This document shows, one piece after another, positions 51,039 through 62,033 of a stretch of DNA of 64,000 bases. The notes under the pieces are model-generated. The model was given only the letters and a program-made list of their open reading frames with translations, was not told where the DNA came from and made no database searches. The position numbers and the translations under genes are program-made. The stretch is taken from contig NZ_CP080649.1 of assembly GCF_019603315.1 (NCBI RefSeq), forward strand, positions 1,379,501 to 1,443,500, in the 5' to 3' direction. The stretch comes from Ruficoccus sp. ZRK36. GTDB taxonomy: Bacteria; Verrucomicrobiota; Verrucomicrobiia; Opitutales; Cerasicoccaceae. Numbering within the stretch: the first letter of the stretch is position 1; each line of letters starts with the position of its first letter.

Positions 51039-52169
51039 TTACTGCCCGGAGGTAGCGTTGTATTTCTTCAGAATGCTGTTCCAGGCGGGACTCTGGATGT
51101 ACTCCAGCATGGCTACGTCGATGTCATGCTCGTACTGGGAGTCGTGAGGGACGGCCAGCGCGAGGTAGCCGGGATTAAAGGTCTGCGCGGATACCTCGAT
51201 GCGTTCGGGGTAGTCCCGCGCGGCCCAGTACTTGAGAATCGGTTGGTCATGGATGAAGGCCTTGATCTTGCCCTGATTGACCGCCTCGAGCCCCTCACTC
51301 ACGCTGGCGTAAACCGCCGGGTGCATGCCCCGGCTCTCCAGAAATGCCTGTGCCGCGGAGTCGTCCAGTACACCGGTTTTGACCTTGGGCAGGGTGGCGA
51401 GGGTGATCTGGTTAGAGGTGATCTGCCCCATGGTCAGGGCGGTGGCGATGGCACCGGTGAAGCCCGAAATGATCAGGATGGAGGTAAACATCCAGGCAAA
51501 GCCGATGGCGCGGCCCCAGAAGGTGACGGGAGCCCGGTCGCCGTAGCCGACCGTCGTCATCGTCACGGCGGACCACCAGAATCCGTTGCCCAGCCCCGAG
51601 AGCGGCCGTCCGCCGAACTGCTCGGCGTTGCGCTTGCGCTCAACGAGCCAGATGAGGAACCCGGCCGCGAGGATGACAGCCAGCAGTGCTACCAGCGCCT
51701 TGAAGAAATTCAGCGTGAAGATACGTTTAAATAAATCCGTAATCAGGTTGTCCTTTTCGCTGCTGCTGGCGATGCCCAGTCCGGTCCCGTAGTAGGTGTG
51801 CGTGAAGTCCATATCGATCACCCGCTCGGCGGTGACGGTGATCGCGGCCGCCCCGACCTGCACTTCGTCCTTGGCGACCTTGTCCAGCATATCGCCCAGC
51901 GCGTACTCTTGGTATTCGTAGTCGTAGCCCAGTTCCTTGGCGACGGCCTCCCACAGCTCGATCGTGATGCCCGTCCACTCGCCGCTCTCGGTCTTAAAGG
52001 AAAAGGGTGGGGCCTCGCGGGTGGCGACGATGAGCTTGGCCGGTTTTTTCGGCGTAGCGGTTTGCTTCACGGCGTGCGGAGCTCCGGAGGTGTTGGGAGC
52101 CTTGTCCGCCGCCTGCAGGGGCAGCCAGACGGTCAGTAGACAGAATACGAGGAATACGTGAGAGCGCAT
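51039..52169 (-). CDS. Prokaryotic ionotropic glutamate receptor-like ion channel (GluR0-like)
   Basis: A 376-residue protein with a signal peptide (VFLVFCLLTVWLPLQA), then a two-lobed periplasmic binding domain split by a channel. Lobe 1 (46-130) resembles amino-acid-binding proteins (REAPPFSFKT, GITIELWEAVAKELGYDYEY); the pore has two helices around TTVGYGDRAP with the TVGYGD potassium filter at 206-211; lobe 2 follows to the end. This order (lobe, M1, pore, M2, lobe) is that of cyanobacterial GluR0, a glutamate-gated K+ channel. Ligand is unknown. The start codon could also be 52178 or 52205. Confidence 0.87.
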   Translation of the reverse strand: MRSHVFLVFCLLTVWLPLQAADKAPNTSGAPHAVKQTATPKKPAKLIVATREAPPFSFKTESGEWTGITIELWEAVAKELGYDYEYQEYALGDMLDKVAKDEVQVGAAAITVTAERVIDMDFTHTYYGTGLGIASSSEKDNLITDLFKRIFTLNFFKALVALLAVILAAGFLIWLVERKRNAEQFGGRPLSGLGNGFWWSAVTMTTVGYGDRAPVTFWGRAIGFAWMFTSILIISGFTGAIATALTMGQITSNQITLATLPKVKTGVLDDSAAQAFLESRGMHPAVYASVSEGLEAVNQGKIKAFIHDQPILKYWAARDYPERIEVSAQTFNPGYLALAVPHDSQYEHDIDVAMLEYIQSPAWNSILKKYNATSGQ

Positions 52170-52296
52170 GCCATGCATGCTGATGGATCGGGATACGTAT
52201 GGCAATGAAACACATGAGCCGGATAATGACTGCGAAAGAATGTGTATCCATTTCGGGATGTTCTTTTCTCCACGTGGGTACTAGAAAGCGTTTCGT

Positions 52297-54028: not shown

Positions 54029-55312
54029 ATGACTGAGACGGAACGTTATCTCTATGGGCTGCGCAATCGCGGCTCCAAGTACGGGCTGGAGCGCATGGCG
54101 ATATTCGCCGAAGCGCTCGGGCATCCCGAGCGGCAGTACCCGGTCATCCACGTGGCCGGGACTAACGGCAAGGGCTCGGTTTGCGCCATGCTGGAGGCCA
54201 TATACCGCCGGGCGGGCTACCGGACAGGACTCTTTACCTCGCCGCATCTGGTCCGCCTCGGCGAGCGTGTACAGGTGGACCGCCACCCCATCTCAGACGC
54301 CCAGATCGAGGACTATGTGGCGCAGATGCGCGCTGTAGGTGAACAGCTTGCCGCGCGTGATCCGCTGGACCACCCGACGTTTTTCGAGTTCATGGCCGGG
54401 ATGGGGATGCTGCACTTCGCCCAGGAAAAGGTGGATGTCGCGATTCTTGAGACCGGGCTCGGTGGTCGCCTTGACGCCACCAATGTGGTTGACCCCGAGG
54501 TCTCCGTCATCACCTCGGTCGGACTCGATCACACCGATATTTTAGGTAAAGACCTGGCCACGATTGCCGGGGAAAAGGCGGGCATTATCAAGCCGGGGCG
54601 TCCGGTCGTGATCGGCTGCCTGCCGCCGGAGGCCGAGGCGGTGATCCGTCAGGTTGCGGCTGAGCGCGGCTGCGTCGTGCACAGCGTGCGCGAGCTTTTC
54701 GGCGCAGAAGAGAACTTTCCCGAGACGAATCTCGAAGGCGGCTTCCAGCGGCGAAACGCTGCGGTGGCCTCGCTCGTGGTACGGTTGCTCCAGGGGCGTT
54801 TCCCGGTCGCTCAGGCTGTGGCTGAGGCTGCCCTGCTGGAGGTTTCCTGGGCAGGGCGCTGGCAGCGGGTCACGCTCGCCGATGGCCGACTGCTGATCCT
54901 CGACAGCTCGCACAATCCAGAGGGGGCGACCGCCTTGGAGGATAATCTCACGCGCCTGGTCGCGCAGACTGGTCGCCGTCCGGTGCTGCTGACCGGCATC
55001 CTCGGGGAGGAGCGGGCTGCCGCGCTGATCCCGACCATGGCCCGGTATGCGAGCGGTTTTATTTTGCTCAAGCCCGACCAGCCGCGAGCACTGGATCCCG
55101 AGCAGCTGCGGGGCTATATCCCGGCTGATTTTGCGGGTGAAATTCGGGAGGGGACGGTGGAGGAGCTATTCCCGGCACCGGGACAATGCGCTGCCGGTTC
55201 GGCCGACGACGTCCTCGTGGTGGCGGGGTCGATTTATCTGGTGGGAGAGATTTGTGCCCGGTTGCTTCCGTCGGGTGTGCCGGGGGGAAGCTCCTTTCAG
55301 GACGCGCTCTAG
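54029..55312 (+). CDS. folC: Folylpolyglutamate synthase/dihydrofolate synthase
   Basis: A 427-residue enzyme of the Mur-ligase-like family that adds glutamate to folates. GTNGKGS (44-50) is the ATP-binding loop, FTSPHLVRLGERV and ETGLGGRLDATNVV are signature blocks, and SHNPEG in the C-terminal domain completes the site. It follows accD by 41 bases, a pairing known in other bacteria. After the stop, 66 bases on, a strong hairpin probably ends the transcript. Confidence 0.92.
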   Translation: MTETERYLYGLRNRGSKYGLERMAIFAEALGHPERQYPVIHVAGTNGKGSVCAMLEAIYRRAGYRTGLFTSPHLVRLGERVQVDRHPISDAQIEDYVAQMRAVGEQLAARDPLDHPTFFEFMAGMGMLHFAQEKVDVAILETGLGGRLDATNVVDPEVSVITSVGLDHTDILGKDLATIAGEKAGIIKPGRPVVIGCLPPEAEAVIRQVAAERGCVVHSVRELFGAEENFPETNLEGGFQRRNAAVASLVVRLLQGRFPVAQAVAEAALLEVSWAGRWQRVTLADGRLLILDSSHNPEGATALEDNLTRLVAQTGRRPVLLTGILGEERAAALIPTMARYASGFILLKPDQPRALDPEQLRGYIPADFAGEIREGTVEELFPAPGQCAAGSADDVLVVAGSIYLVGEICARLLPSGVPGGSSFQDAL

Positions 55313-55378
55313 GCGGTCGGTTATCCGGCGGCGGACCTCAAGCCTCTGCGATGGCAAGGCGTCCGTTTTTGCTGCATG

Positions 55379-55404
55379 GCCCATTTTTTTAGAAAAAAAT
55401 GGGC
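55379..55404 (+). terminator. Hairpin after folC
   Basis: GCCCATTTTTTT, a two-base AG loop, then AAAAAAATGGGC: a perfect 12-bp stem. It stands before the structured RNA locus. There is no plus-strand T-run after it, so a classical Rho-independent role is not certain, but the T-run is inside the stem. Confidence 0.6.
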
Positions 55405-55600
55405 TCCCGCCGACGGTGATAGGCGAGTTACGAACTTATTCACCGAGGTCGTTTTTGCGGTCCGAAAGATGTTCACTGCTGTTGCGTTTGTAATATAGTT
55501 TCCTTCATGTAGTTACAAACTTGTTAACACGACTTGACTTTTTAGGTTTTGTTATTATTCACAAAGCGTTGATTTTTAATGGCTTACGAGTCTGATTGGC
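55405..55600. other. AT-rich gap with possible upstream promoters
   Basis: No gene was recognised. The stretch is richer in A and T than its surroundings and holds a TTGACT at 55534-55539 with no convincing -10 hexamer at the right distance. It separates folC from the structured RNA. Confidence 0.4.
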
Positions 55601-55630
55601 TTGACTTTATCCGGATGTTACAGTTATGTT
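55601..55630 (+). promoter_or_regulatory. Promoter candidate for the structured RNA
   Basis: TTGACT at 55601-55606 and TATGTT at 55625-55630 with an 18-base spacer form a plausible sigma-70-type promoter on the plus strand, pointing to a start near 55637, just before the first strong hairpin of the RNA candidate. Confidence 0.55.
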
Positions 55631-55636
55631 TTCCTC

Positions 55637-56673
55637 GTTCTTTGACAGAACGGGAAACGTTCTCCGATTCGCGCCCCAGGTTTACCTGAGGCGATGGTAG
55701 GAGAACCAAAAATCCCCAGGATAATCCCGGGTAACCGGGCAAAGGTCGGAAACTGAACTGGCGGTTCCGGCCCCTGATGGTCCGTCCTTGCGGCGGGTTG
55801 TCAGGCAGATGTCACCCCTTCCGCCCGCGGGTGTCGTGACCACGCGGGTGCAACCACGAAAAAAGGAAGGAGGCGAGGAGCAACCAAACGGATGAGGTAT
55901 GCGACTCGAGTCAGGCCTTGGATTATATCCGAGTCCTTGGCAGATACGCGGCGACCCCTGCGCCAACCAATGAGGGTCAATGAGAAGCTGCCGCGAGCCA
56001 GTCCCCCACAGTGTTAACGACCGGCGACGGCACGTCGCCACAAGGTTCCTCTCCGGGAACGCGAAAAGGTCGGCTGACGGGGCGCGGGACGGCGGGTGCC
56101 GGGCAAGGTGCCCGCGCTGGTTCCGATCAACATGGAAAACGCCGGCGGAGCGAAAAACCGCTTCGACGGCGCTGTCTGGTGCGAAATGCTTCCTGAGGGA
56201 TGTCCCCGGACGACTCCGTAAAACGAGCCGGACCGGTGGCGGCAAGTGGCCTCGTACAGGCCATGGACCCGCCAGGCCGTAGGGCAGGACCTAAGAGGCA
56301 AGACCCGTAACCGTGGGGCCAACGCTCCGATCCACTGCGATCGGAGGCCGACCCCCCGGATGCAAGGCCAAGGCGGCGAGACAGCGTCACCTCGGCCTGG
56401 TGCGGCGAGCGATGCGCCCCGACGGGGGACAATGCCGAACCGCGCTGAAAGGCCTCACCCGAAAATCTCAGAGAGGGTAACTTCTCTGACGGGCCTGCTA
56501 TGAGCCCGCCGACCCGGAGATGCCGCCGGGAATAGCGTCGGGGAGACGACAGCCTGCCCGCTTGCCGGGCAAGAGCGCCTAATGTCGTCGATCGGGGAAG
56601 AGCGCGTGGCGAACGCCCACTCCCACTTTTCAAGGGCCCTCATGGTTTCGACCATGGGGGCCTTTGTGTTTTT
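55637..56673 (+). ncRNA. Candidate large structured non-coding RNA (about 1 kb)
   Basis: Between a promoter candidate and a strong terminator lie 1,037 bases with no convincing protein: the longer frames (for example 55682-56245 minus) are Arg/Pro/Ser-rich and change frame across strands. The plus strand is instead full of short helices with tight loops: AGAACG-GGAAA-CGTTCT (55647-55663), CGCC..CAGG-loop-CCTG..GGCG (55672-55693), GGCGACG-GCA-CGTCGCC (56023-56039), CAGAGA-loop-TCTCTG (56469-56488), TGCCCG-CTTGC-CGGGCA (56555-56571). It is not recognisable as RNase P, tmRNA, rRNA or a group II intron (no domain V motif seen). Size and density recall large ornate bacterial RNAs such as OLE, GOLLD or ROOL, but kinship to those is not claimed. 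Confidence 0.65.
56632..56673 (+). terminator. Rho-independent terminator of the structured RNA
   Basis: AAGGGCCCTCATGGT pairs with ACCATGGGGGCCTT through a TTCG tetraloop (14 pairs, one bulged G, one G-U pair), followed by TTTGTGTTTTT (56663-56673). The T-tract is only on the plus-strand side, which fixes the direction of the transcript. Confidence 0.85.
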
Positions 56674-56817
56674 AGGCATTCGCACGGATGCGACGAACTT
56701 TTCGGGGGAGGAGATGAACGACAAAGTACCCAGATAGCTCGATGAACCGTTCCGAGCTTCACTTCGGCCCTATTAAAAAACATCGAGCAGACGCGATGTG
56801 TGCCGGAGGCATTGCAC

Positions 56818-56849
56818 AAAAAAACCGGAGCCGTGGTGGCTCCGGTTTT
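56818..56849 (-). terminator. Terminator of the FKBP isomerase gene
   Basis: AAAACCGGAGCC (56821-56832) and GGCTCCGGTTTT (56838-56849) form a 12-bp stem around a five-base loop. On the minus strand the A-run before it becomes a U-tract, which ends the isomerase transcript 31 bases after its stop. Confidence 0.88.
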
Positions 56850-56879
56850 GAAAGTATCAGGGTTTACCTGCTGGTCCGC

Positions 56880-57599
56880 CTACTTGATGGCAGGGGCCGG
56901 GGCGGGCGGATTTACGTCCACCATTTCGACCTCAAAGACGAGGGTCGAGCCGGGAGGGATCGGGCTGCCGGGCATGGCGGCATCGCCGTAGGCCAGGTCG
57001 GAGGGGATGTACAGCTTGACCTTGCCGCCCTTACCGATGAGCTGCACGCCTTCACCGAAGCCGGGGACAACGTTAGCGACCGGGAAGATGGCGGGCTTGC
57101 CGCGCTTGTACGAGCTGTCAAACTCCGTGCCGTCGACCAGCGTACCGGCGTAGTTGACCTCGACCGTATCGGTTTCGGTGGGCTTGGGGCCGGTGCCTTC
57201 TTCGATGATCTCGTAGTAGAGGCCGCTGTCGGACTTCTTGATGTCCGGGTTAGCCTTCAGCTGCTCGGCGATGTACTCCTGGCCCTTCTTCTTGTTCATG
57301 GAAACAAGGCGCTGGGTGAGGTACTGCTGGAGCTGCTGCCAGGTGGCCTGTGGGTCGTCCGGGCCAGCTTCACCGTTGAGGTGAGCCTGCACGCCGGCCA
57401 GAAAAGCTGCCTTTTCCTCATCGGTGATGCCGAGATGGTCCGGATCGGGGGTCGCGAGCCAGCCGTAGTCCTTGAGCAGCTGAGTCCCGGAGGGCATTTC
57501 AGCCGGGGTGCCGGGCTGAGTGGGTTGTGCGCTTGCGCTCAGAGCGATCAGGCTGCTGGCGGCCAGTGCGAGGAGGGTTTTTCCTGTATTCAATCTCAT
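56880..57599 (-). CDS. FKBP-type peptidyl-prolyl isomerase (FkpA/Mip-like)
   Basis: A 239-residue periplasmic isomerase with signal peptide (LLALAASSLIALSASAQP). An N-terminal helical dimer domain (EKAAFLAGVQAHLNGEAGPD, YLTQRLVSMNKKKGQEYIAE) precedes the FKBP domain: VEVNYAGTLVDGTEFDSSYK, GFGEGVQLIGKGGKVKLYIP SDLAYGDA, and STLVFEVEMVDV. It accelerates proline isomerisation in the folding of envelope proteins. It has its own terminator, and the structured RNA lies downstream in the opposite direction. Confidence 0.92.
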   Translation of the reverse strand: MRLNTGKTLLALAASSLIALSASAQPTQPGTPAEMPSGTQLLKDYGWLATPDPDHLGITDEEKAAFLAGVQAHLNGEAGPDDPQATWQQLQQYLTQRLVSMNKKKGQEYIAEQLKANPDIKKSDSGLYYEIIEEGTGPKPTETDTVEVNYAGTLVDGTEFDSSYKRGKPAIFPVANVVPGFGEGVQLIGKGGKVKLYIPSDLAYGDAAMPGSPIPPGSTLVFEVEMVDVNPPAPAPAIK

Positions 57600-58505: not shown

Positions 58506-59261
58506 TTATTGATCAGCTTGCGGGCCGGGTGGTGGCGGCAGTTGCTCATCGTTGCCGGGCGCTGGGGAGTTCTGACCGGGGTTTTCACGGTTTGTGCCGT
58601 CTTTCTGTCGATCTCTGTCGAAGGAGCCGCGCTCCGGGCGCGGGGGCAGGGTGGACTCATCGAAGCCGGCCTCCTTGGCCTTGAGTAGCATTTCCTGATG
58701 CCGGGCGAGGCGTTCCTCCGGGCTGAGGCCTTTCATCTCACGCCAGAGGGCTTTGCGCTCCTCATCCGGCAGGCTGCGCCAGTACTGGTGGAGGATCATG
58801 CGCTCCTCCCACGGGATCTTGCGGTGCTCTTCCATTAATTGCTGGCGGCGGGCGGAGTCCATGTCGCGTATCTTGCGGATGCGTGCGCGCATTTCCTCTT
58901 TCTCCTCTTCGCTCATCTGCTCGATGCGGCCAATCAGGTTCCGAATCATGGCCAGTTGTTCGGGCGACATGTCCAGGAACTTCTCAACGGCAGCCAGCTC
59001 TTCGCTCATGCCCTTGGGGCGGCGTTCGCGGGGGGAGATTCTGTCATGGCTCTTGCGGGCGTCATCGAGCTCATCCTGTGGCGGCGGAGGTGGTGGCGGC
59101 GGGCCCGGCTCGACTTCAGGGGCGGGTGCTGCCGGTGGGGCCATGTCCGAGTGAGGAGCCGTGGCATCATCGGCGGCCAGAAGGGCAGGGCAGCTGATCC
59201 ATAGCGGGGCAAGGGCCAGCAGGGTTGTGCGTAAAAGAGAGGTGAGAGCTGTAGGCTTCAT
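58506..59261 (-). CDS. Secreted Pro/Glu-rich protein (DUF3106-like)
   Basis: A 251-residue protein with a signal peptide (TLLALAPLWISCPALLAAD), a run of eight prolines, and an acidic-basic helical core: MSPEQLAMIRNLIGRIEQMS EEEKEEMRARIRKIRDMDSA, then SLPDEERKALWREMKGLSPE ERLARHQEM, which matches DUF3106 and Spy/CpxP-like periplasmic helical proteins. The C-terminal 60 residues are polar and disordered. As the third gene behind a sigma and an anti-sigma-like gene, it may sense envelope stress and modulate them; this is inferred from context. Confidence 0.7.
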   Translation of the reverse strand: MKPTALTSLLRTTLLALAPLWISCPALLAADDATAPHSDMAPPAAPAPEVEPGPPPPPPPPQDELDDARKSHDRISPRERRPKGMSEELAAVEKFLDMSPEQLAMIRNLIGRIEQMSEEEKEEMRARIRKIRDMDSARRQQLMEEHRKIPWEERMILHQYWRSLPDEERKALWREMKGLSPEERLARHQEMLLKAKEAGFDESTLPPRPERGSFDRDRQKDGTNRENPGQNSPAPGNDEQLPPPPGPQADQ

Positions 59262-59272
59262 GAAGGGTTGGG

Positions 59273-59857
59273 TTAGTTAACCAGTAAATCGAGAGCTTCG
59301 ATCGTGTCTTGATTGCTGAGGGCGGCGACCTCGACGAGTGCGTCCTGCATCATGATCAGATCGGAAAGGTCATCGGTGCGTGCACTCCGTGTGGTCGCGA
59401 AAAGAAAATCCGGTGTGTCACCAAGCTCTGAGTCACCCTCTTCATCTGCGGCGAGCATGGCTGCCTGAGGGGCGGCAAGCGGCTGGGCACTCGTAGATGC
59501 ATAGGCATCGTATCTGGGCGTAGGCTCATCGCGCGTGATCATAATCGCGCTGAAAATACCGACTGCGACCATGGCCGCCATGCCCACTGCGGTCCACATC
59601 CAGCCCTGCTGGCGGTGTGCCTGTGGGGTGCCCGTGGTGGTGTCCACGGTGTTTTGGGCAAATTCGGCAGATGGGCGCAGGGGCTGAGCGGAGAGCCAGG
59701 CATCCAGCTGCCGGTCAAGCTCGTCCTCGCTCATCGGCTTCTTTGCCTCGGCGTGGATGCGGGACAGCGTCTTGTCCGTAAAGTCCTTCGAGGGGCGTAC
59801 GGGCTGGCCGCTCAGGAGCCGCTCGAGCGGGTCTTTGCCTGTGGAGTCGGTGCTCAT
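59273..59857 (-). CDS. Transmembrane anti-sigma factor-like protein
   Basis: A 194-residue protein with one membrane helix (WTAVGMAAMVAVGIFSAIMI) near the middle and a cytoplasmic N-terminus that contains a duplicated motif: LERLLSGQPVRPSKDFTDKT and LDAWLSAQPLRPSAEFAQNT, 38-40 residues apart. Its start overlaps the sigma-factor stop by four bases. By position and topology it should hold the sigma at the membrane; no zinc-finger motif is seen, so this would be a non-ZAS anti-sigma. Direct proof is absent. Confidence 0.68.
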   Translation of the reverse strand: MSTDSTGKDPLERLLSGQPVRPSKDFTDKTLSRIHAEAKKPMSEDELDRQLDAWLSAQPLRPSAEFAQNTVDTTTGTPQAHRQQGWMWTAVGMAAMVAVGIFSAIMITRDEPTPRYDAYASTSAQPLAAPQAAMLAADEEGDSELGDTPDFLFATTRSARTDDLSDLIMMQDALVEVAALSNQDTIEALDLLVN

Positions 59858-60441
59858 GATGCGTTGGTGTAAAAGTCTTTCAGTTCGGTTTTCAGCTTCT
59901 GCCGTGCGCGGTGGATCCAGCTTTTGACGGAAGTTTCGCTGGCGTCCATGGCCTGAGCGATTTCCTCGTAGCTGAGCTCCTGTTGTTTGAGCAGCAGGAT
60001 GGCCGTGCGCTGATTTTCGGGTAAAGTCTCCAGAGCCTTTTCAAAGGCTTCTTCGATTTCCATTAGCGCGAGTTTGTCGCGTCCGGGTGTCTCAGCTCCG
60101 AGCTCGGCAGGGTCAACTGCTTCGAGTGGCTTACGGGATTGCCGGCGGTACTCGTTGATAAGCAGGCGGCGCGCGATGTGAAAAAGGTAGGTGGAGAACT
60201 TCGCCTTGGGCTCGTACTTGGCGGCGGCCTGATACACGCGGATGAAGACCATTTGTGCCAGGTCTTCGGATTGTTCGACGGAGCCGAGCGAGCGGTAGAA
60301 GAAATTGATCAGCGGTGTCTGCCATTTCTCCACCAGCATGCGCAGGGCCTGTTCGCTCCCGCCGGCGGCTTCCAGCATGAGCGCGGCATCCGGATCCTCG
60401 CAGTGCTCGTTTGCGGCGGGCATGGTGGATAGACTAGGCAT
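59854..60441 (-). CDS. ECF-type RNA polymerase sigma factor
   Basis: A 195-residue sigma-70 family protein. Region 2 is seen in LGSVEQSEDLAQMVFIRVYQ and KFSTYLFHIARRLLINEYRR, region 4 in LPENQRTAILLLKQQELSYE EIAQAMDASETSVKSWIHRA. It is the first gene of a three-gene operon with an anti-sigma-like gene (four-base overlap) and a secreted DUF3106-like gene. The frame continues to 60519; ATG codons at 60441 and 60423 fit better. Probably an envelope-stress regulator. Confidence 0.88.
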   Translation of the reverse strand: MPSLSTMPAANEHCEDPDAALMLEAAGGSEQALRMLVEKWQTPLINFFYRSLGSVEQSEDLAQMVFIRVYQAAAKYEPKAKFSTYLFHIARRLLINEYRRQSRKPLEAVDPAELGAETPGRDKLALMEIEEAFEKALETLPENQRTAILLLKQQELSYEEIAQAMDASETSVKSWIHRARQKLKTELKDFYTNAS

Positions 60442-60519
60442 GGACTGGGCAGGCAGCCAAGCCGGAAGCGGGCTGGCGATGATATTGTTCACAGCCCATA
60501 AAACCCCTGCCTCCCCCAA

Positions 60520-60655
60520 AAGTTGCAGCGGGGTGCCCCCGCTGGCAATGAGGGGCTGTGCCCTTAGTACCTGTCTTATACCGTAGTCGTGTTTGCCATC
60601 CCACCGCGTTGGCGGTGGGATCAGTGCTGCTCCAGCCGGAGTGTGAATAAGTCGT
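60520..60655. repeat. Mosaic palindromic repeat block
   Basis: Contains CCCACCGCGTTGGCGGTGGG (60601-60620) followed by ATCAGTGCTGCTCCAGCCGG, both units also found elsewhere (9178, 37395, 43668). It lies between the divergent sigma operon and nrdB, on the sigma side of the promoter area. Confidence 0.6.
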
Positions 60656-60760
60656 GGATAAGAAAGAACAATTGACCGTTGCGCTGGCGTGGGGCCGGTT
60701 TTTCAATCCTCATACCGTGGCCGTGTTGAGGCTGCGCTGCCTATGAGTATTTGCTGAGTT

Positions 60761-60941: not shown

Positions 60942-62033
60942 ATGGAAACCACGACGATCACGATTGGGAACAAGACCTTCATCCTCGATAAGGACAAAGC
61001 CGAAAAGGCGCTCGCCTCCAAGGCGGTCATCAATGGCCGCGACACCATGTTCTTCAATATTCTGCCGCTGAAGTACCAGTGGGCCTACGATCTGTACAAG
61101 AACATGAAGGCGAACCACTGGGAGCCCGAGGACGTCCCCATGCAGAAGGACTGCGAACAGTGGCGTGACACATCCGGGGCTATTTCCGACATCGACCGCT
61201 GGATTATTAAAATGGCCGTGGGTTACTTCTCGGCCGCAGAGGGTATTGTCGGGGATAACATCATCCATGTGGTGCGCGAGCTGGTCACGGCCTCCGAGCT
61301 GAAGCTCGTCCTCGGCCGCCACGCGCACGAGGAAAACATCCACGCCGACTCACTGGTCTATATGATCAGCTCGCTCGGCATCAACCCGCACGAGTGCGAG
61401 GCGATGTTTGAGGACATCCCCACCATCGACAAGAAGACTCACTTCGTGGTCTCCAACTCACGCGCCATGCGCCGTGACATTGATCTGACCATCACCCGTA
61501 ACAAGCAGGACCTGGCCAAGAACATGTTCCTCTTTGGCCAATGTATGGAGGGGACGCAGTTCTACGGGCTGTTCGGGATGGTGCTCTCGCTTTACCGCCA
61601 GAACAAGTTCCCCGGCATCGGCCAGATGTTCCGCTACACGCTGCGCGACGAGTCCAACCACATCGAGCTCCTGCGTAACCTGCTCATGGCACTCGTCCAT
61701 GAAAACCCGGACATGTGGACCGCGGAGTTCCGCCAGGAACTGGTCGATATGATGAAGGAAGCCATCGCCCTGGAAAAGGAGTTCATCCGCGACTGCCTCC
61801 CGGTCAACGCGCTGGGCCTCTCCGCCGATGAGTTTGTGCAGTACATCGACTATATCGCCGACCGTCGCCTGGAAGGCTGTGGACTGCCGATCCTCAACCC
61901 CGGCATCTCGAATCCCTTCCCGTGGCTGTCCGAGGCGATCGACATGAAGAAGGAGCAGAACTTCTTTGAGGGTCGCGTGACCGAGTACCAGAAGGCCTCC
62001 GCTCTGGAGTCTGTTGACGACGACGACCTCTGA
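60942..62033 (+). CDS. nrdB: Class I ribonucleotide reductase subunit beta (class Ic-like)
   Basis: A 363-residue R2 subunit that houses the dimetal cofactor starting radical transfer to NrdA. Metal ligands E100, E131, H134, E203, E237 and H240 are all present (SAAEGIVGDN, RHAHEENIHADSL, CMEGTQFYG, RDESNHIE). The residue at the place of the E. coli radical Tyr122 is Leu138 (H-A-D-S-L), and the first ligand is Glu rather than Asp. Both are features of class Ic (Mn/Fe) enzymes such as that of Chlamydia. The C-terminal DDDDL tail would bind the alpha subunit. Two NrdR boxes lie upstream. Confidence 0.92.
   Translation: METTTITIGNKTFILDKDKAEKALASKAVINGRDTMFFNILPLKYQWAYDLYKNMKANHWEPEDVPMQKDCEQWRDTSGAISDIDRWIIKMAVGYFSAAEGIVGDNIIHVVRELVTASELKLVLGRHAHEENIHADSLVYMISSLGINPHECEAMFEDIPTIDKKTHFVVSNSRAMRRDIDLTITRNKQDLAKNMFLFGQCMEGTQFYGLFGMVLSLYRQNKFPGIGQMFRYTLRDESNHIELLRNLLMALVHENPDMWTAEFRQELVDMMKEAIALEKEFIRDCLPVNALGLSADEFVQYIDYIADRRLEGCGLPILNPGISNPFPWLSEAIDMKKEQNFFEGRVTEYQKASALESVDDDDL

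Follow-up and report, generated by a model that had tools for sequence, protein, structure and literature searches.

A divergent member of the MISL RNA class with a BoxA-like 5′ element in Ruficoccus sp. ZRK36

What is encoded by the roughly 1 kb that separates folC from an FKBP gene in Ruficoccus sp. ZRK36? In the window (the whole stretch of 64,000 nucleotides of this genome that was analysed), a first-pass annotation had read positions 55637-56673 as 1,037 bases without a credible coding frame, flanked by a promoter and a terminator, and as a candidate structured RNA some 1 kb long whose class might be new in Verrucomicrobiota. The first of these readings was upheld. Specifically, Pfam gave no match for the open reading frames inside the RNA (187 and 168 aa antisense, 100 and 85 aa sense). 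Most differences between the window and its two closest relatives are indels of 1-2 bases; 14/15 and 20/23 of all indels have lengths that are not multiples of three, and substitutions fall evenly on all three codon phases, without codon periodicity. The region is therefore not protein-coding.

When searched with cmscan in E-value mode, the locus matches MISL RNA (RF03079), a class reportedly introduced by Weinberg et al. in 2017, over all 751 model positions (55719-56617, 256 bits, E=1.8e-76), and a search of the whole 3.76-Mb genome finds MISL as a single copy (E=9.8e-77). A cmscan of the whole window at gathering thresholds returned no match, because the score lies just under the gathering cut-off of RF03079 (274.6 bits, i.e. 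the window MISL is 18.6 bits short). This cut-off is a curation limit rather than a biological feature, and MISL scores within the same family fall on both sides of it (239-277 bits), a relative of the same genus (L009, its record identical to L150) lying above it with 277.5 bits and the remaining family members scoring 239-274. The core has conserved sequence blocks: across 36 aligned sequences, 103 columns reach 95% identity or more with the window, among them TCACC, AGACCCGT and GCGTCGGG. The window shares with MISL the conserved blocks AGACCCGT, GCGTCGGG, GCGCCNAA and GAGCGCGTGGCGA, the full aligned model and the helices, with compensatory changes, whereas it differs in its score and in an extra domain of 92 nt (56200-56291). 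For OLE, GOLLD, ROOL, group I/II introns, RNase P and tmRNA, no Rfam match was obtained in 55300-56900 up to E=10. There is next to no doubt, judging from these matches, that the window RNA belongs, as a divergent member, to MISL, a class of large non-coding RNAs with extensive structure. The proposal of a possibly undescribed class fell with this end-to-end match, which the default gathering threshold had hidden; the annotation had itself named a strong Rfam hit in a cmscan search as what would remove the novelty, and such a hit is what the search gave.

The minimum free energy of -487.8 kcal/mol compares with -440.8 +/- 9.7 in 60 dinucleotide shuffles (z=-4.8), and neighbouring coding DNA has no excess structure (z = 0.3 and 0.7). 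With the Rfam structure mapped on the window, 156/175 pairs are canonical, and in a sequence-only alignment of five same-family sequences (the window being 58-89% identical to the other four) 84% of the pair cells are canonical, against 36-44% in slid controls. Since the slid control alone is biased, the structure having been mapped through the window, the weight rests on the count of double changes. These occur at 49/175 pairs in the five sequences (shuffles, which do not preserve relatedness, have a mean of 26 and a maximum of 36, and 0/300 reach 49), and at 133 pairs in the set of 36 sequences (0/300 shuffles reach 133). On this comparative evidence the predicted Rfam MISL structure is kept in the window and is supported by compensatory changes. 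The annotation had also listed five compact hairpins, of which those at 56023, 56469 and 56555 are Rfam MISL helices, while the one at 55672 falls in the leader, outside the model, and the one at 55647 overlaps the BoxA-like 5′ end described below.

The position of the extra domain is defined by the helices that close the central domain:

56197-56460, plus strand: the two closing helices (GGG 56197-56199 paired with CCC 56458-56460; GAGG 56295-56298 paired with CCTC 56453-56456)
56200-56291, plus strand: extra domain of 92 nt between the two closing helices, where Rfam-type members have nearly no sequence

In most MISL members UAAGAGG follows CCTGAGAG immediately, but members of the window's family have about 87-156 nt between CCTGAGGG (56192-56199 in the window) and the GAGG block, and the insertion is predicted to fold on its own in 5/5 family members. 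The middle pair of the 3-bp closing helix is A-U in 23 members and G-C in 5, with two exceptions. In the cmscan alignment a strand of this helix falls on GGA near 56287, with 123 nt counted as an insertion, which lowers the score; that placement was rejected, the covarying partner being GGG 56197-56199. The 92-nt insertion explains the score shortfall at least partly. The window RNA is therefore a MISL that carries an additional peripheral domain.

The Rfam model contains no leader, BoxA-like motif or terminator, whereas the window has all three. The predicted gene comprises:

55601-55630, plus strand: sigma70-type promoter TTGACT-18-TATGTT, its position relative to the BoxA-like motif kept in congeners
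55637-55651, plus strand: BoxA-like motif GTTCTTTGACAGAAC, where the RNA is predicted to begin, compared below with rrn leaders of related genomes
55652-55716, plus strand: 5′ leader domain (GGGA 55652-55655 with TCCC 55713-55716, inner hairpin 55659-55665/55700-55706), outside the Rfam model
55719-56617, plus strand: MISL RNA core (RF03079 positions 1-751), with covariation
56618-56625, plus strand: conserved 3′ extension CACTCCCA, beyond the end of the Rfam model
56631-56666, plus strand: intrinsic terminator hairpin with a TTCG loop, a 16-bp stem and a T-rich tail to about 56673

The promoter named in the first-pass annotation is present, and both congeners have a -35/-10 pair at the equivalent place; the UUCG-loop terminator was likewise found on the plus strand, and a terminator-like hairpin follows the RNA in 36/36 members compared. 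The annotated boundaries were close, given the MISL core and a predicted transcript of its own of ~1.04 kb, from about 55637 to 56673. The Rfam match, the folding z score and the flanking signals bear out the reading of a real structured RNA with its own promoter and terminator. On the minus strand, another strong terminator hairpin (56816-56869), convergent with that of MISL, lies after the FKBP gene; a weak match to NsiR1 at these positions was set aside as a chance match to a terminator-like hairpin.

The 5′ leader (82 nt, fold z=-4.9) has counterparts across the class. A leader-closing helix of at least five contiguous pairs stands just before the MISL core in 26/31 members (shuffled arms 25%), and its sequence varies by clade (CAGTCG/CGACTG; GGATGT/ACATCC; GAGTGCG/CGCGCTC), GGGA/TCCC in the window having 4 bp. 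The motif GWTCYTTGAYAGAA and close variants lie 5′ of the core in most MISL members, and with at most two mismatches the BoxA-like motif is found in 54/59 upstream regions of pattern-found loci, against 3/59 on the opposite strand. In most members with upstream DNA it sits after the promoter and before the RNA core, and is predicted to be transcribed; in many clades a -35/-10-like pair ends about 7 nt before it (81 distinct upstream sequences with the motif). In gammaproteobacteria the published BoxA is GYTCTTTAANA (PMC5725501), and BoxA increases transcription through long arrays (PMC7862264). In the leaders of rRNA operons and CRISPR arrays, both of which yield long untranslated RNAs, BoxA stands a short way past the promoter, and the MISL motif is placed likewise; MISL differs in being neither rRNA nor crRNA, in carrying the motif at its extreme 5′ end and in that antitermination is here a prediction.

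In the Ruficoccus genome itself the region upstream of the 5S gene reads N and 16S (RF00177) was not found; the motif was compared with the readable rrn leaders of related MISL-bearing genomes. In two of these (G029 and G199) the rrn leader GTTCTTTGAAAG is identical to the MISL leader (12/12), none of 200 shuffles being as good in either, and in a third (G358) rrn GATCTTTCACAG and GATCTTTGACAG before MISL agree at 11/12 positions (again 0/200 shuffles as good), the rrn-leader element being written GATCTTT(C/G)ACAG. Most other genomes compared have 2-4 mismatches between the two, no better than shuffled leaders. In Opitutaceae the MISL motif GTTCCTTGATAG differs from rrn BoxA GTTCTTTGAAAT at three positions; the two elements are related, but with 2-4 differences between them the resemblance has no significance by itself. 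The motif of Limisphaerales-type members carries an A as its fifth base, and some MISL copies are therefore imperfect BoxA elements. An exact 13-mer, TTCTTTGACAGAA, occurs twice in the Ruficoccus genome, at the MISL 5′ end and at G000:C1:1946832-1946844 (L058), immediately before a tRNA gene (its anticodon read by eye as GGG), where it suggests a BoxA on the tRNA transcript. We consider it probable that the 5′ element of MISL would work as a BoxA.

MISL homologues were found in 13/54 relatives and 30/388 genomes of the phylum, and in 0/14 control genomes. Within the window's family 5/10 genomes carry it, and it is missing in 1/4 same-genus and 4/4 sister-genus genomes; as one congener and the sister genus are without it, any role must be dispensable in some lineages, and this loss means that MISL is conditionally useful. 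A DNA pattern of the 3′ core has at least 119 stretches in GTDB, and among the pattern matches listed these are overwhelmingly from Verrucomicrobiota (Opitutaceae, Puniceicoccaceae, subdivision 3/Limisphaerales and Akkermansiaceae); the matches in Parasphingorhabdus, Nocardioides, Actinomadura and an alphaproteobacterial MAG were rejected, not being MISL at the gathering level. Widespread in Verrucomicrobiota and confirmed here in that phylum only, MISL is chromosomal, patchy and usually single copy. Two genomes have two copies each (G196, L050 and L051; G369, L052 and L053) in different neighbourhoods, one of the G196 copies scoring clearly lower, and these pairs are possible paralogues. The neighbours of MISL vary by clade, the folC and FKBP flanks being found in the window's genus only. 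Elsewhere on the minus strand of the window, 58506-60519 has an operon-like order (an ECF-type sigma factor gene, the unassigned ORF 59273-59857, then a DUF3106 protein), and 51039-52205 encodes a glutamate-receptor-like protein with solute-binding and ion-channel domains (prokaryotic iGluR type).

Upstream of the promoter, two sites resemble DnaA boxes, the consensus of which is TTWTNCACA:

55436-55444, plus strand: TTATTCACC, first copy of the TTATTCAC repeat ahead of the promoter, an imperfect DnaA-box-like sequence
55555-55563, plus strand: TTATTCACA, a DnaA-box-like site (TTWTNCACA), a pattern found upstream of many members

A perfect TTWTNCACA lies within 200 nt upstream in 38/80 members (shuffles: mean 2.1, maximum 6), and in 59/81 members the 8-mer TTATTCAC, with a background density of 0.02 per kb in the Ruficoccus genome, precedes the BoxA-like motif by no more than 140 nt, often in tandem copies 11 nt apart. 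That the factor at these repeats is DnaA is our inference; DnaA control of MISL would be a realistic possibility that we rate slightly below even, and the repeats suggest, more weakly, that MISL synthesis may be tied to replication or the cell cycle. The minus strand of the window also has a tandem DnaA-box-like pair, TTATCCACGACTTATTCACA, at 60642-60661; it precedes nrdB (60942-62033, ribonucleotide reductase small chain) by about 280 nt and is the only such tandem in this genome; nrdAB of E. coli is DnaA-controlled.

Several other explanations of the locus have to be set against these data. A large RNA class new to science, as first supposed, would agree with the silence of Rfam at its gathering thresholds, with the 92-nt domain and the 5′ leader outside the model, and with the fact that MISL is itself functionally orphan; the full-length RF03079 match, the above-threshold score of the congener L009, and core blocks and covarying helices common to other MISL RNAs have already refuted it, and its probability is practically nil. 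OLE, GOLLD and ROOL are likewise large ornate non-coding RNAs of obscure biochemical role, unlike MISL in that the window has no Rfam match to them and that neither a constant protein neighbour nor a phage association was found. As for the 5′ motif, it could be a mere 5′-end stabilising hairpin or a second promoter, with no BoxA at all, given that GTTCT and AGAAC are able to pair in the window (as the motif can form a small hairpin in many members), that TTGACA is the -35 consensus and that most Opitutaceae show only a weak match to the rrn element. Members with GATCTTTGACAGAA, however, disrupt the stem without compensation, the sequence 3′ of the motif is GC-rich with no evident -10, the -35/-10 pair lies upstream of the motif instead, and 12 nt are identical with rrn leaders of the same genomes in one family, so that we hold this reading to be unlikely, if far from negligible.

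The place of the RNA between folC and the FKBP gene in the window's genus might point to a cis-regulatory element or a long UTR of one of them, but it has its own promoter 3′ of folC and its own terminator, and other members adjoin unrelated genes. The FKBP gene downstream lies on the opposite strand, convergent with the RNA, and since neighbours also differ between clades, MISL is unlikely to act in cis; the non-conserved synteny largely refutes such a role, leaving it only a marginal chance, and the differing neighbours mean that MISL should act in trans. Patchy distribution, varying neighbours and the double copies in G196 and G369 would also suit a mobile or phage-borne RNA of the GOLLD/ROOL kind, which is made very unlikely by the lack of any match in viral contigs, phage records or plasmid records, by the usually single chromosomal copy and by confirmation in one phylum only. 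The DnaA-box-like arrays, finally, could make MISL a part of, or a marker for, a replication origin. GC skew changes sign near 0.9-1.0 and 2.8-2.9 Mb, ~0.45 Mb or more away from MISL at 1.435 Mb, and the genome's only tandem array precedes nrdB, not MISL; because the skew puts origin and terminus far away, the locus was rejected as oriC, and the origin reading is about as improbable as the cis one.

Class membership, the conserved structure, promoter-like and terminator sequences of its own, the want of a constant neighbour and the BoxA-like 5′ element can all be read from sequence. The best overall explanation, which we consider likely, would be a divergent MISL made as its own transcript with rRNA-type antitermination and acting in trans; that MISL is an independent trans-acting transcript appears, taken by itself, slightly more secure still. 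RNA polymerase would start at the sigma70 promoter, and the first nucleotides would form a BoxA that recruits NusB-S10, i.e. the rRNA antitermination complex, whereby the long untranslated structured RNA would be completed without premature Rho termination. The RNA would then fold and work in trans, most likely as scaffold or catalyst within an RNP, and would be neither a riboswitch nor an antisense RNA of folC or the FKBP gene. MISL is thus pictured as most likely a stable, trans-acting RNA made with rRNA-type antitermination, probably an RNP. A bolder version, in which this rRNA-like, NusB-BoxA antiterminated RNA is also timed by DnaA and forms the core of an RNP that is coupled to growth or the cell cycle and confined to Verrucomicrobiota, is tentative and on balance doubtful.

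MISL, mentioned in passing in the literature (PMC10925082), is, with few others, a functionally orphan bacterial RNA class of more than 700 nt. The Rfam model ends short of the likely gene ends, and its cut-off leaves out 4/5 of the MISL RNAs found in the window's family. A corrected MISL gene model takes in the extra domain, the DnaA-box-like sites, the BoxA-like leader and a 5′ end that is likely to be the true one. In the literature searched, from which the likely founding paper of MISL was absent, no description was found of the BoxA-like leader, the leader helix, the DnaA-box-like sites or the extra domain; the leader may already have been noted by others, and a BoxA-like element, of the type that shields rRNA transcription, at the start of the MISL class looks new, as does the frequent presence of DnaA-box-like sites before it. 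If this reading is right, a large orphan RNA would join the short list of BoxA-dependent transcripts beyond rRNA and CRISPR arrays, and if a DnaA-timed, NusB-BoxA antiterminated MISL were also true, a large orphan RNA would be joined with DnaA and Nus factors in one regulatory unit.
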